IMG/VR virus record: IMGVR_UViG_3300032240_001134
Span: 1-27,841 of that record
Length of the DNA stretch: 27,841 nucleotides
Strand: one strand, 5' to 3'
DNA from: a virus
The position numbers were made by a program, and so were the translations under genes. This document shows, piece after piece, positions 11,215-23,997 of the stretch. The notes beneath the pieces are model-generated. The model was not told where the DNA came from. It was given only the letters and a program-made list of their open reading frames with translations, and searched no databases. Position 1 is the first letter of the stretch, and every line of letters starts with the position of its first letter.

Positions 11215-11239
11215 CGTATATAATACTTGGAAGCGAATC

Positions 11240-11680
11240 ATGGAATTACATCACATCAGAGATATCACACACCCCTTGGCAGGGATCATTAAAGATGATC
11301 CAGTACGCCCACACATCCCTATCGAACAACGCATTAACGAGGCTGCTGAAATTATGATCCTTAAAGCAGGAGAAGAAGTTTTAGCAGCCACTTGCCTACA
11401 ATGGTTAAGTGAAGTTCCTGAGGATGAGCAAGATTTGATCAATATGAATAAAGCTAAAGATGTGGCTGTATTTTATACCATTTGGAGTTACTCGCCAGGT
11501 GCAGGTGCTCGATTATTACAAGAGGCAGCTAACTGGATTAAAACAGAATATCCCGTAAAAAGTATCGTAACTCTAAGCCCACAAACAGAAATGGCTCGCA
11601 AGTTTCATTTAAAAAACGGTGCTCGAATTCGTAGAGAAAATCCTACCAGTGTTAATTACGAATACTATAGTAAGGAATAA
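11240..11680 (+). CDS. GNAT-like acetyltransferase-fold protein (146 aa)
   Basis: The order of elements resembles the GNAT N-acetyltransferase fold: AAEIMILKAGEEVLAATCLQ (beta strands), VAVFYTIWSYSPGAGARLLQEAANWIKTEYPVKSI (strand, then the acetyl-CoA loop GAGARLL and helix alpha3), then VTLSPQTEMARKFHLKNGA, the usual strand and C-terminal helix with 'FHLKNGA' like 'FYEKNGF'. The classical Q/RxxGxG/A motif is seen only as SPGAGARL, so activity is uncertain. Proteins like this occur near late genes of T4-like cyanophages. It starts the late cassette and stops two bases before the first fibre gene, so it may modify a virion or host protein, which is inference. Confidence 0.7.
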   Translation: MELHHIRDITHPLAGIIKDDPVRPHIPIEQRINEAAEIMILKAGEEVLAATCLQWLSEVPEDEQDLINMNKAKDVAVFYTIWSYSPGAGARLLQEAANWIKTEYPVKSIVTLSPQTEMARKFHLKNGARIRRENPTSVNYEYYSKE

Positions 11681-20480: not shown

Positions 20481-20495
20481 TTTATCATTTACATG

Positions 20496-20520
20496 CCCCG
20501 ACCCCCCACCCAGTCTCCCC
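20496..20520 (-). other. Possible G-quadruplex motif (minus strand)
   Basis: Read on the minus strand: GGGG, five-base loop AGACT, GGG, one-base loop, GGGGGG, two-base loop, GGGG. Four G-tracts of at least three with short loops fit the canonical G4 pattern. It is isolated within an otherwise mixed sequence. Confidence 0.6.
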
Positions 20521-20551: not shown

Positions 20552-20694
20552 TCCTCTGGCTACCGGGAGCGAATCGGATTTATGCCAGAGGACCAAGTTG
20601 GCTAGATAGCTCTCTAGCCTGAGGAACAGCTTACCGGGAGCGAATCGTTGGGCTGTTCTGTGTGCAGGGCTAGCACTATGCTGTGCTATACCCT
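20552..20694 (-). ncRNA. Candidate structured RNA: twin hairpins with an identical 16-nt loop motif
   Basis: HP1: 9-bp stem 20552-20560/20584-20592. HP2: 7-bp stem 20600-20606/20613-20619. HP3: 7-bp stem 20624-20630/20652-20658. HP4: bulged stem 20666-20676/20683-20694. HP1 and HP3 have unrelated stems (CCTCTGGC, GAACAGC) that pair perfectly, yet share the loop string TACCGGGAGCGAATCG (20561-20576, 20632-20647). Read on the minus strand, HP1 is followed by ATTTTCTTTT, like a terminator, so the RNA is probably the 3' part of the AAA+ transcript or a processed sRNA. The minus loop contains UUCGCUCC, complementary to GGAGCGAA at three early Shine-Dalgarno sites. Function is inference. Confidence 0.6.
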
Positions 20695-20702
20695 AGTACT
20701 AG

Positions 20703-21551
20703 TTAGCGCATACAGGTAACAGCCGCTACCTCTTGCCAGCGCTGTGGGAAGCTAACACGCAGGTCTGCTAGCTTGAGCACCATACGCAGGGACAGCTCAC
20801 GTAACCTGCCCTTGTTCACGTTGATGAACTCCAACAGGTCTGCTTGCTCTTCAGCTGTCATTTCATACTTGTCCAGCATGCCATCGCCTACGATCTGACG
20901 GATACGTAACAGCTTCTCACGCTCTGTATCAATAGTCAAGTCCAAGTAGTGGCAGCGGCTCTCTAGTGCTTCCAAGTGATCTTTCAGCTTCTTGCTCTTC
21001 ACATGCTCAAACTTGATGTTGGTAATAAAGATAGCACCGCCCTTGAACTCGAATGAGCCTGGGATGCCTTCTTGACGGAGCAAGCGGCTGTCAGTGTTCC
21101 AATGGATCATACGCTTTGAACCTGAGTCCAATGCTGCCTTTAGAATGTTCAAGCTGAGATCATCAAGCAGTACTGAGTCGCAGTCATCAAACACTAGAAT
21201 GTTCTTGGGATCACTGTAGGCAAACAGTTTGGCATACAAGCCCAAGGCACTCATTGCACCCTTGACAACTTCGTACTTCTTCAGCTTCTGATCGTTAGCC
21301 ACATTGGCGAACACATCGTGCTTCTCAAGTACTTTCTCAACACCAAAGCTCTTGCCCACACCTGGAGGGCCCGTAACGATCATGCTACGGATCTTACCTG
21401 CTTTGACAGCACGAGTCATGTCGTCCAGGATCTCAAAGCGTCCACGCAGGCGTTCGATGATCTCTGCGTCAGTCTCTGTGCTGACTCGTTTGTTGTTCTC
21501 TTGTGCGAGGCTAAGAACTGAACCTTTGTCTTTGGCAATACGCTGTACCAT
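20703..21551 (-). CDS. AAA+ ATPase (282 aa)
   Basis: Walker A is GPPGVGKS (residues 61-68), Walker B ILVFDDCDS (118-126) and sensor 1 is the N of IFITN (about 178). A conserved Arg in LESRCHY may be the arginine finger. Flanking helices and the short C-terminal helical lid (residues ~210-282) complete a single AAA+ module. No N- or C-terminal partner domain is seen, so the substrate is unknown; DNA remodelling, clamp or helicase loading are all possible. AAAGGAGCGACAG precedes the ATG, and a perfect promoter lies upstream. Codons are clearly more GC-rich than in the left half. Confidence 0.85.
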   Translation of the reverse strand: MVQRIAKDKGSVLSLAQENNKRVSTETDAEIIERLRGRFEILDDMTRAVKAGKIRSMIVTGPPGVGKSFGVEKVLEKHDVFANVANDQKLKKYEVVKGAMSALGLYAKLFAYSDPKNILVFDDCDSVLLDDLSLNILKAALDSGSKRMIHWNTDSRLLRQEGIPGSFEFKGGAIFITNIKFEHVKSKKLKDHLEALESRCHYLDLTIDTEREKLLRIRQIVGDGMLDKYEMTAEEQADLLEFINVNKGRLRELSLRMVLKLADLRVSFPQRWQEVAAVTCMR

Positions 21552-21581
21552 CTGTCGCTCCTTTTGTTAAGTTAAATGTCT

Positions 21582-21610
21582 ATTATAAGGGCTTTCGCCC
21601 TGTGTGTCAA
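21582..21610 (-). promoter_or_regulatory. Perfect sigma70 promoter of the AAA+ gene
   Basis: On the minus strand, TTGACA and TATAAT are perfect and 17 apart. The spacer contains the inverted repeat AGGGC-GAAA-GCCCT. Confidence 0.92.
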
Positions 21611-21951
21611 TCAAGTCGGCTACCTGCATAAGCTTCGAAGCCATACTTCTGAAACACTTTGGCGGCAGCTTCTGCACCCGCTTCTAGTGTGTCTACGTTC
21701 TGCACGAACATGCCGCTGGGGTTCCAGATTTGAAACGCTTTGGTGTAGTCTTGCTTGACACCTGCCTGTTTGAGCATCTTGCCCAGTTTGGTGTTGCCTT
21801 TGACACCGTAGATGTTGGTCCAAGCAAAGCCGCAGGCGTACTGGTCCTTGCCGCCCAGCTTGTCATGGAAGAACTTCATTGCGGCTTCGTAAGCTGCCTG
21901 CTGAGCTTCTTTGACGATTTGATTGACTTGCTCTTGTGTAGTGATCTGCAT
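21607..21951 (-). CDS. Conserved phage hypothetical (114 aa)
   Basis: Start ATG 21951 has AGGAGCGAA seven bases upstream. An N-terminal coiled-coil-like helix (TQEQVNQIVKEAQQAAYEAAMKFF) is followed by CGFAWTNIYGVKGNTKLGKML, FQIWNPSGMFVQNVDTLEAGAEAAAKVF and KYGFEAYAGSRLD. I recall the CGFAWV, WNPSG and YAGSR-D signatures from a widespread family in tailed phages that has no known function. The end overlaps the next promoter (-35 of the AAA+ gene at 21605-21610). Confidence 0.85.
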   Translation of the reverse strand: MQITTQEQVNQIVKEAQQAAYEAAMKFFHDKLGGKDQYACGFAWTNIYGVKGNTKLGKMLKQAGVKQDYTKAFQIWNPSGMFVQNVDTLEAGAEAAAKVFQKYGFEAYAGSRLD

Positions 21952-22018: not shown

Positions 22019-22405
22019 TCAATAGTACTCGTCCGCGTTGAACTCGTCGCCATAGTACTCTGCGGCTTCTTCATCGGTCATTTGGTAGTCATCACCATCC
22101 TCAAACAGCATGTCGTCTTTGAGCATCTTGTTGACAGTCTTGAGCTCAACCTGCTTGCTCAGTTGCTTCCACAGCTCGGCTTCACGTAGAGCCAGCTGTT
22201 CTTCAATGTAGCCTTTGATGGCCTTCATCATGGCAAAGTCTTTGTTGGTGCCCACGTTACAAGAGCACTCGTCGATCATGTCAAAGGTCTCTTGGAAGCT
22301 GAGTCCTTCGCCTGTGTTCTTGTTGTACTGTTTGCGGCTGGCACCCAGGAAGTTCACGGCATCTTGCAGGTCCATTGGGCGGATAAGGTCATCCCAGTTA
22401 TACAT
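22019..22405 (-). CDS. Hypothetical acidic protein (128 aa)
   Basis: AAGGAGCGAACCTT precedes ATG 22405. The protein is helical (LQDAVNFLGASRKQYN, IKGYIEEQLALREAELWKQLSKQVELKTVNKML) and ends in an acidic, tyrosine-rich tail (FEDGDDYQMTDEEAAEYYGDEF). Two Cys in DECSCNVG. No family recognised. It belongs to the early monocistronic series, each gene with its own promoter. Confidence 0.75.
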   Translation of the reverse strand: MYNWDDLIRPMDLQDAVNFLGASRKQYNKNTGEGLSFQETFDMIDECSCNVGTNKDFAMMKAIKGYIEEQLALREAELWKQLSKQVELKTVNKMLKDDMLFEDGDDYQMTDEEAAEYYGDEFNADEYY

Positions 22406-22434
22406 AAGGTTCGCTCCTTTGTTGCTAAGTGTTG

Positions 22435-23297: not shown

Positions 23298-23537
23298 TCA
23301 ATCCCAGGATTTTTTACCGCCGTGAGCTTCATTGTACTCGTAGCCAGCGGCATAGGCTACGATCTCTGCAGGAGTCATGTCCTTGGCCTGTACGGGCTCT
23401 GAATCGTAGCTACCGCCTTCAAAGTAGTGAGGGTTGAAAGGACGGCTGTACCAGCTGTCTGCTGAGCCACGATCAAAGGGTCCACCATGGCGGCTGTCGT
23501 AGACTTGACCCTTGTACTCTATACGTTCTGCTATCAT
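23298..23537 (-). CDS. Conserved phage hypothetical (79 aa)
   Basis: TAAGGAGCGAAG precedes ATG 23537. The block YDSRHGGPFDRGSADSWYSRPFNPHYFEGGSYDSE, then MTPAEIVAYAAGYEYNEAHGGKKSW, is a signature I recall from many phage hypotheticals. It is rich in Gly, Tyr and Asp. Function unknown. Confidence 0.85.
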   Translation of the reverse strand: MIAERIEYKGQVYDSRHGGPFDRGSADSWYSRPFNPHYFEGGSYDSEPVQAKDMTPAEIVAYAAGYEYNEAHGGKKSWD

Positions 23538-23563
23538 CTTCGCTCCTTATTGTCTATACTGTA

Positions 23564-23592
23564 AGTATAACATCGGTTTTACCACTTGTCAA
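23564..23592 (-). promoter_or_regulatory. Sigma70 promoter TTGACA-17-TATACT with palindrome (gene at 23537)
   Basis: The -10 box is part of the inverted repeat TATACT-TAC-AGTATA. A 31-base block that contains it (23542-23572) is repeated exactly at 23779-23809. The TGA inside TTGACA is the stop of the upstream 61-aa gene. Confidence 0.88.
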
Positions 23593-23774
23593 GCAGATTC
23601 TTTAACTCTATATGCTACTACCTCGCCACCACCTTTGGCATGACTGCCATCGATGAGTTTGGTAAACATCTCAACGATCTCTTCTGCTTCTTGTCGTGTG
23701 CGATAGACGTTGAGTGGTTCCCAACGGTTGGGACGTGTCTTAAATTTCAGTTCTCGCTCTACAAAGTAGTTCAT
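23589..23774 (-). CDS. Hypothetical (61 aa)
   Basis: TAAGGAGCG precedes ATG 23774. Beta-alpha-beta-like (NYFVERELKFKTRPNRWEPL, then NVYRTRQEAEEIVEMFTKLI, then GGEVVAYRVKES), resembling small phage proteins that are read beside tRNA genes, without known function. Its TGA stop lies in the next -35 box. Confidence 0.78.
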   Translation of the reverse strand: MNYFVERELKFKTRPNRWEPLNVYRTRQEAEEIVEMFTKLIDGSHAKGGGEVVAYRVKESA

Positions 23775-23800
23775 GCCCGCTCCTTATTGTCTATACTGTA

Positions 23801-23829
23801 AGTATAACACCAAAAAGAAACCCTGTCAA
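23801..23829 (-). promoter_or_regulatory. Sigma70 promoter TTGACA-17-TATACT (gene at 23774)
   Basis: Same 31-base block as in the promoter at 23564-23592, including TATACT-TAC-AGTATA. It starts 13 bases after the tRNA-Arg 3' end. Confidence 0.88.
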
Positions 23830-23841
23830 CCGACGGGGTAT

Positions 23842-23916
23842 TGGTCCGGCGACCAGGAATCGAACCTGGATTGATAGCTTAGAAGGCTACTGTTCTGTCC
23901 ATTGAACTACCGCCAG
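23842..23916 (-). tRNA. tRNA-Arg(UCU)
   Basis: The acceptor stem CTGGCGG/TCGCCGG, D arm (GTTC...GAAC), anticodon stem GTAGC/GCTAT with loop CTTCTAA (anticodon UCU), T arm CCAGG-TTCGATT-CCTGG, discriminator A and an encoded CCA are all present. It decodes AGA/AGG, frequent in the AT-rich late genes. Confidence 0.93.
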
Positions 23917-23919
23917 GAT

Positions 23920-23997
23920 TGGTGGGCCCTCCGTGAGTCGAACACGGCACCAATGGATTATGAGTCCACTGCTCTAACCAACATGAGCTAAGGGCCC
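23920..23997 (-). tRNA. CAU tRNA, probably tRNA-Ile2 (lysidine type)
   Basis: Acceptor GGGCCCT/AGGGCCC, D arm, anticodon stem GTGGA/TCCAT with loop CTCATAA (anticodon CAU), T loop GTTCGACTC and encoded CCA. Acceptor pairs C4-G69 and C5-G68, which TilS recognises in tRNA-Ile2, are present; elongator Met has T4-A69/A5-T68. AUA decoding is therefore likelier than Met. Ends four bases from tRNA-Arg. Confidence 0.85.

Follow-up and report, generated by a model that had tools for sequence, protein, structure and literature searches.

What is a pair of hairpins with one and the same loop, held on unrelated stems, doing behind a viral AAA+ ATPase gene? The window (the whole stretch of DNA that was analysed) is a 27,841-base IMG/VR fragment whose replicative helicase and AAA+ protein both have their closest isolate relatives among the Pseudomonas jumbo phages of the PA5oct group, at approximately 50% and 47% amino acid identity, respectively. 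Going by the IMG sample numbers, its relatives are presumably "freshwater-type" phages. A first-pass annotation, made from the letters of the window, had read the hairpins as a functional RNA of the minus strand, being either the end of the AAA+ transcript or a small RNA processed from it. Our analysis supports this reading; what the annotation had not seen is the role of the loop, which, judging by complementarity, is antisense to ribosome binding sites (RBSs) of late genes as well as of genes in the hairpins' own cluster.

The twin hairpins

The plus-strand 16-mer TACCGGGAGCGAATCG occurs exactly at 20561–20576 and again at 20632–20647, the two copies starting 71 bases apart. With up to three mismatches allowed, the window holds two matches versus 0.04 expected, and none of 100 shuffles reached two; the twin-hairpin observation is correct and far from chance. 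The third hairpin between them is also exactly where it had been placed, and the described stems of 9, 7, and 7 bp can be read off the sequence. Since the hairpins lie 45 nt 3' of the stop codon of the minus-strand AAA+ gene, the minus strand is the relevant RNA, and here the loop reads CGAUUCGCUCCCGGUA. The features are, in the order of transcription:

20703–21551, minus strand: AAA+ ATPase gene (phrog_1250, T4 nrdC.10-like), whose 3'UTR bears the hairpins; its stop codon is 45 nt before HP2
20624–20658, minus strand: HP2, the proximal hairpin; 7-bp stem GAACAGC/GCTGTTC, same loop as HP1, no U-run
20632–20647, minus strand: loop motif of HP2, the exact 16-mer
20600–20619, minus strand: middle hairpin; 7-bp stem GGCTAGA/TCTAGCC, small loop without the motif
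20552–20592, minus strand: HP1, the distal hairpin; 9-bp stem TCCTCTGGC/GCCAGAGGA and a 23-nt loop that includes the motif with the putative antisense core
20561–20576, minus strand: loop motif of HP1, RNA 5'-CGAUUCGCUCCCGGUA-3', predicted antisense to leaders with GGGAGCGAAUC or GGAGCGAA
20543–20551, minus strand: U-run after HP1, UUUUCUUUU

Past HP1, the minus strand continues as TTTTCTTTT. The hairpin region folds better than its shuffles on both strands, with z values of −2.2 (plus) and −2.7 (minus). The middle hairpin is not conserved across the family: it is present in only some relatives (L022, L026, L045, L056, and L067), where its stem is fully variable and its small loop lacks the motif. 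Just past HP1, at 20495–20515, there is a C-rich stretch (ccccgacccccc on the plus strand) that most relatives have in the same place; read on the minus strand, this stretch is rich in G and falls beyond the terminator.

Spread and covariation

Outside the window, the exact 16-mer was found in 98 IMG/VR stretches, mostly in hairpins with other stems. To avoid a choice based on the motif, 80 IMG/VR loci were sampled by AAA+ protein similarity alone. In 79 of these, the core GAUUCGCUCCC is present with at most one mismatch on the coding strand 3' of the AAA+ gene (the remaining locus, L209, has it with two mismatches), and in 74 of the 80 it is present at least twice within 420 nt. The claim of a shared 16-nt loop thus stands for the window, where the 16-mer is exact in both hairpins, and gives way across the family to a shorter conserved part, the 11–12-nt core GAUUCGCUCCC(G) of the minus strand.

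Although the stem sequences vary at nearly every position, they keep pairing. Stems of at least 7 bp are formed by 92 of 113 distinct hairpins, compared with 16.5% after an exchange of 3' arms among hairpins, and these 113 carry 80 different inner stem sequences. In ungapped alignments, 99.2% of the cells of the proximal stem and 95.3% of those of the distal stem are paired, all 16 stem base pairs have changed on both sides, and the covariation scores of 1.12 and 1.18 compare with 0.31 and 0.28 after shuffling and are far above slid controls as well. Further copies with compensatory stem changes were what the first-pass annotation had proposed as support for a functional RNA, and across IMG/VR such homologues, with the loop preserved, are abundant.

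The two hairpins differ in what follows them. A T-run on the gene strand follows the distal hairpin in 39 of 51 homologous loci and is found on the opposite strand in none of the 51, which supports the suggestion that the minus strand is read here to the end of the AAA+ transcript; proximal hairpins have no T-run (0/42). By these sequence features, HP1 and its distal counterparts are predicted intrinsic terminators of the AAA+ transcript, and HP2 and the proximal hairpins are not.

As the annotation had stated, no named RNA family accounts for the element. An Rfam 15 search of the window returned only two tRNAs at gathering thresholds, which the hairpins did not reach for any family, C4 antisense RNA included, and at E ≤ 10 there was no credible match near the hairpins. 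(The tRNA genes, Arg(TCT) and Met(CAT), are adjacent to each other at 23842–23997 on the minus strand.) The hairpin region had no blastn match among phage isolates, and the loop core was not found in the isolates PA5oct, Melnitz, RcRudolph, and CRP-9; the three CGCTCCCG matches in RcRudolph, a GC-rich genome judging by the control counts, are at chance level.

Leaders of early genes

The sequence GGAGCGA(A), to which the loop is complementary, precedes the AAA+ gene and many of the neighboring early genes. Of the minus-strand genes of the window, four have GGAGCGA (with starts at 21551, the AAA+ gene, and at 21951, 22405, and 23537), and one, with its start at 23774, has GGAGCGG:

21552–21561, minus strand: leader and RBS of the AAA+ gene, GGAGCGACAG-ATG, with 7 nt predicted to pair with the loop
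21952–21962, minus strand: RBS GGAGCGAAACT of early gene 21607–21951 (phrog_22149), predicted target
22406–22417, minus strand: RBS GGAGCGAACCTT of early gene 22019–22405, predicted target
23538–23546, minus strand: RBS GGAGCGAAG of early gene 23298–23537, predicted target
23775–23783, minus strand: RBS GGAGCGGGC of early gene 23589–23774, weaker predicted target

Two consecutive early genes share an identical promoter-leader cassette, gttatacttacagtatagacaataaGGAGCG, at 23775–23810 and 23538–23573, which suggests that the cassette has spread by recombination. On the other strand, the gene at 11240–11680 begins with ggAAGCGAATC-ATG (11229–11239, plus strand), a partial match to the antisense of the loop.

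Among AAA+ leaders with a GGAG Shine–Dalgarno (SD) sequence, GGAGCG is found in 64 of 66 and GGAGCGA in 51 of 66. Many sigma70-type genes near the hairpins of the jumbo records G006 and G009 start as TATAAT-N20-AAGGAGCGAAC-ATG, and in both records GGAGCG is much more frequent in the gene cluster that surrounds the hairpins than elsewhere (10/18 versus 2/78 in G006, p = 2e-7; 8/18 versus 5/92 in G009, p = 9e-5). The cassette TATAAT-N10–26-GGAGCGA has six to nine copies in each of five hairpin phages searched and none in the four isolates without the loop (PA5oct, Melnitz, RcRudolph, and CRP-9). It is the closeness to the hairpins that is significant for GGAGCGA, and not the contrast between sigma70 and late promoters.

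When, in a control on duplex energies, the anti-SD part CUCC was kept and the rest of the loop permuted, the number of early leaders with duplexes of −13 kcal/mol or lower was not significantly raised, permutations doing as well in 42/200 cases for G006, 31/200 for G009, and 29/200 for the window; under this control, only the late targets stand out. The early pairing, at 7–8 bp, is short without a chaperone. Because the early-leader energy count is not significant alone, we rely on the joint change of leader and loop and on the long matches at late genes.

Leaders of late genes

Some exact 16-mers lie outside hairpins, in the sense orientation, directly before start codons and behind the T4-type late promoter TAAATA. 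Five jumbo records, G006 (265 kb), G009 (280 kb), G016 (353 kb), G062 (345 kb), and G064 (356 kb), the last two sampled by AAA+ protein only, each have, apart from the hairpins, the sense sequence GGGAGCGAATC at the RBS or in the leader of a late gene with a TAAATA promoter; in these leaders, GGAGCGA is extended to GGGAGCGAAUC, at one or two late genes. The first three records have the core twice in hairpins and once at a late-gene RBS, G009 with one further copy inside a coding sequence. The late targets are here a CsgF-like protein (PF10614) or a 93-amino-acid protein, whose relatives in phages Melnitz and HTVC008M are encoded in the curli operon. In G062 and G064, the single exact copy outside hairpins is at the start of a late DUF4337 (PF14235) gene, approximately 50 nt before the start codon in G064, where a second copy, GGAGCGAATC, is directly at the start. 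A DUF4337 membrane protein behind a late promoter is encoded at jumbo phage loci L372 (2275–2862) and L373 and has no relative in the phage isolate collection. For the curli-operon and membrane genes, a use in lysis has been suggested (Melnitz paper, PMC9004378).

Across seven records of more than 200 kb, five of the six core copies outside hairpins are at such late leaders; simple arithmetic on base composition gives an expectation of approximately 0.5 copies anywhere in the same records. The two loop/late-leader duplexes that were computed have predicted energies of −34.0 (G006) and −32.3 kcal/mol (G009). Complementarity to unlinked RBSs beyond chance, the mark of antisense action in trans, is thus found at the late leaders of five jumbo records.

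Joint change of leader and loop

A pattern search with the full-length PA5oct AAA+ protein found no relatives; the more distant ones came from an alignment query. Many of these have a different AAA+ leader, and the hairpin behind the gene is altered alongside. The leader GGAGCCAACC occurs with the loop GGUUGGCUCC in 18/18 loci, on hairpins such as CCCGGGC-ATTGGTTGGCTCCG-GCCCGGG or, with another stem, GTTTGGG-TCTGGTTGGCTCCG-CCCAAAC; the leader GGAGCUAG goes with the loop CUAGCUCC, the leader GGAGCTAG with loops containing GTCTAGCTCC, and one GGAGCTAA locus has TAGTTAGCTCC.

Sorted by leader class, a hairpin antisense to the own leader is present in 56/60 GGAGCGA and 18/18 GGAGCCA loci; of the seven GGAGCTA leaders, two have one within 600 nt and two more have one farther off. 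There are no cross-matches among the GGAGCG, GGAGCC, and GGAGCT classes. With the GGAGCG loci excluded, 20/50 loci match their own leader over a 7-mer, whereas 1000 permutations gave 7.0 on average and never more than 13. The match between AAA+ leader and own 3' loop is 7–8 nt long in the GGAGCG group and 9–11 nt in the GGAGCC group. The 18 GGAGCC loci share ancestry and represent few independent events, which still leaves at least three different matched pairs. The leader classes GGAGTGA and GGAGTTT had no matching hairpin. An AAA+ group with the long constant leader AAAAGGAGTGAGAACCAATG (L396, L402–L406, L415, L416, L424, and L429) has no matching hairpin either and may be under a different control.

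Proposed mechanism and alternatives

We propose that the element is a phage 3'UTR antisense RNA that masks SD sites on its own mRNA and in trans, to which we give a probability of roughly 0.77. The twin hairpins would form the tail of the early AAA+ transcript or else be cut out of it as a short RNA, with the loop core 5'-GAUUCGCUCCC-3' displayed on each stem. Two kinds of pairing are predicted for this core: 7–8 bp with the GGAGCGA(A) SD region, both in the AAA+ mRNA and in the mRNAs of several early genes of the same cluster that have sigma70 promoters, and, in related jumbo phages, 11–16 bp with GGGAGCGAAUC where one or two late genes for membrane or curli-operon proteins begin. A paired mRNA would be unable to bind the 30S subunit and might become a substrate for RNase III. 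With rising levels, the AAA+ transcript would exert feedback on the early cluster, and the late genes would stay silent until the RNA is gone. The base pairing between loop and leader is strongly supported by the sequence comparisons; that it represses, that the hairpin RNA is made and accessible, and that the timing is as described, we infer.

How far does the pairing reach beyond the gene that carries the hairpins? The loops might pair solely with the leader of the AAA+ mRNA itself, the neighboring leaders being alike by descent of one cassette. Self-pairing does appear to be what the matched classes have in common: each of the three has its hairpin behind the AAA+ gene, with a loop that fits the leader of that gene (most extensively, over 9–11 nt, in GGAGCC), and the early leaders do resemble copies of one TATAAT...GGAGCGA cassette, of which, however, the loop matches only the RBS part. 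The hairpins of G009 and G016 stand behind other genes, C-type (gene-overlapping) hairpins are carried by genes whose readable leaders lack GGAGCG, and the longest matches (11–16 nt) belong to late genes tens to hundreds of kilobases away. Unlinked late genes, together with hairpins behind genes without a matching leader, lead us to propose action in trans as well, and we hold action in cis alone to be unlikely.

Other readings do without the leaders. The distal hairpin is, as predicted above, a terminator, and conserved loops can be protein sites, so one might see ordinary terminators here, each with a second hairpin protecting the 3' end and a loop kept for a protein or for stability, the leader match being incidental. 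The proximal hairpin is no terminator, though, and a single protein could not recognize both loop and leader, whose sequences are each other's complement and not the same; outside hairpins, exact matches at late genes are almost confined to leaders, and loops and leaders change together between groups. Given this joint change, the reading is disfavored, and we consider it improbable. A target in the host would explain why the GGAGCG group has kept its loop almost unchanged, as would be expected for a conserved host RNA (a set of host mRNAs or a 16S rRNA stretch, presumably GGGGAGC(G/A)AAC) that the phage leaders merely tolerate; yet phages with other leaders have other loops, and the exact 15-mer in bacterial genomes is, among the matches listed, scattered over unrelated taxa as by chance, which makes such a target very improbable. 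Less probable still is a double-stranded DNA operator, bound for instance by a repressor acting on early and late promoters, that sits in hairpins by chance. The late copies are indeed just downstream of TAAATA promoters, whereas a DNA site has no need of a covarying stem or a fixed strand; in all loci the leaders are complementary to the strand that forms the hairpins, and a long distance separates the copies behind genes from promoters.

If masking of SD sites in cis and in trans is right, this is a widespread phage antisense RNA with a regulon, made visible by the co-evolution of both sides across groups, and it would tie the control of early genes to late genes for curli-operon and membrane proteins. 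In T4-like phages, the post-transcriptional regulators known so far are mostly proteins (RegA and RegB). The reading gives directly testable targets and a marker for further leader/loop codes. More speculatively, and in our view doubtful, the code of each group might let the early RNA of one phage silence a second phage with the same code; this superinfection exclusion would be RNA-based and lineage-specific and come in addition to timing the phage's own early and late genes.

Comparison with known systems

Antisense control at the RBS is known; in the open-access literature, we found no earlier account of this element, of its phage regulon, or of leader/loop pairs that change jointly. In the C4 antisense RNA of phages P1 and P7 and the CI RNA of P4, antisense loops pair with short targets that overlap an RBS. 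The present loop is likewise a predicted phage antisense loop at RBS-overlapping targets; unlike C4, it has no Rfam match, is not upstream of an antirepressor gene, would serve a regulon rather than one target, and belongs to T4-like jumbo phages.

Silencing of early mRNAs at GGAG SD sites, autoregulation included, is what we propose here and what the T4 endoribonuclease RegB does, which cuts GG*AGRAYARAA and acts on its own mRNA as well (PMC3014915). RegB is a protein, whereas the predicted agent here is an RNA loop, and the early leaders, being GGAGCGAA and not GGAGRA, do not have the RegB consensus GGAGRAYARAA.

In Staphylococcus aureus, RNAIII and RsaE pair in trans with the SD sequences of several mRNAs through C-rich UCCC(C) loop motifs (PMC3868564). 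Organism and sequence differ from ours, and the phage seed would reach past the SD into GCGAAUC, which would make it specific to the phage's own leaders. The closest known mechanism is that of the icaR 3'UTR of S. aureus: its UCCCCUG motif base-pairs with the SD sequence of the very mRNA that carries it, so that initiation is blocked and an RNase III site arises; pairing both in cis and in trans was considered (PMC3868564). As in icaR, a 3'UTR motif is complementary to the SD of the same mRNA, here in the AAA+ leader and loop. Unlike icaR, the element is phage-encoded and carried twice on covarying hairpins, one of them a predicted terminator; its loop matches a gene cluster and late genes in addition to its own gene, and the leader/loop sequence pair differs between phage groups.
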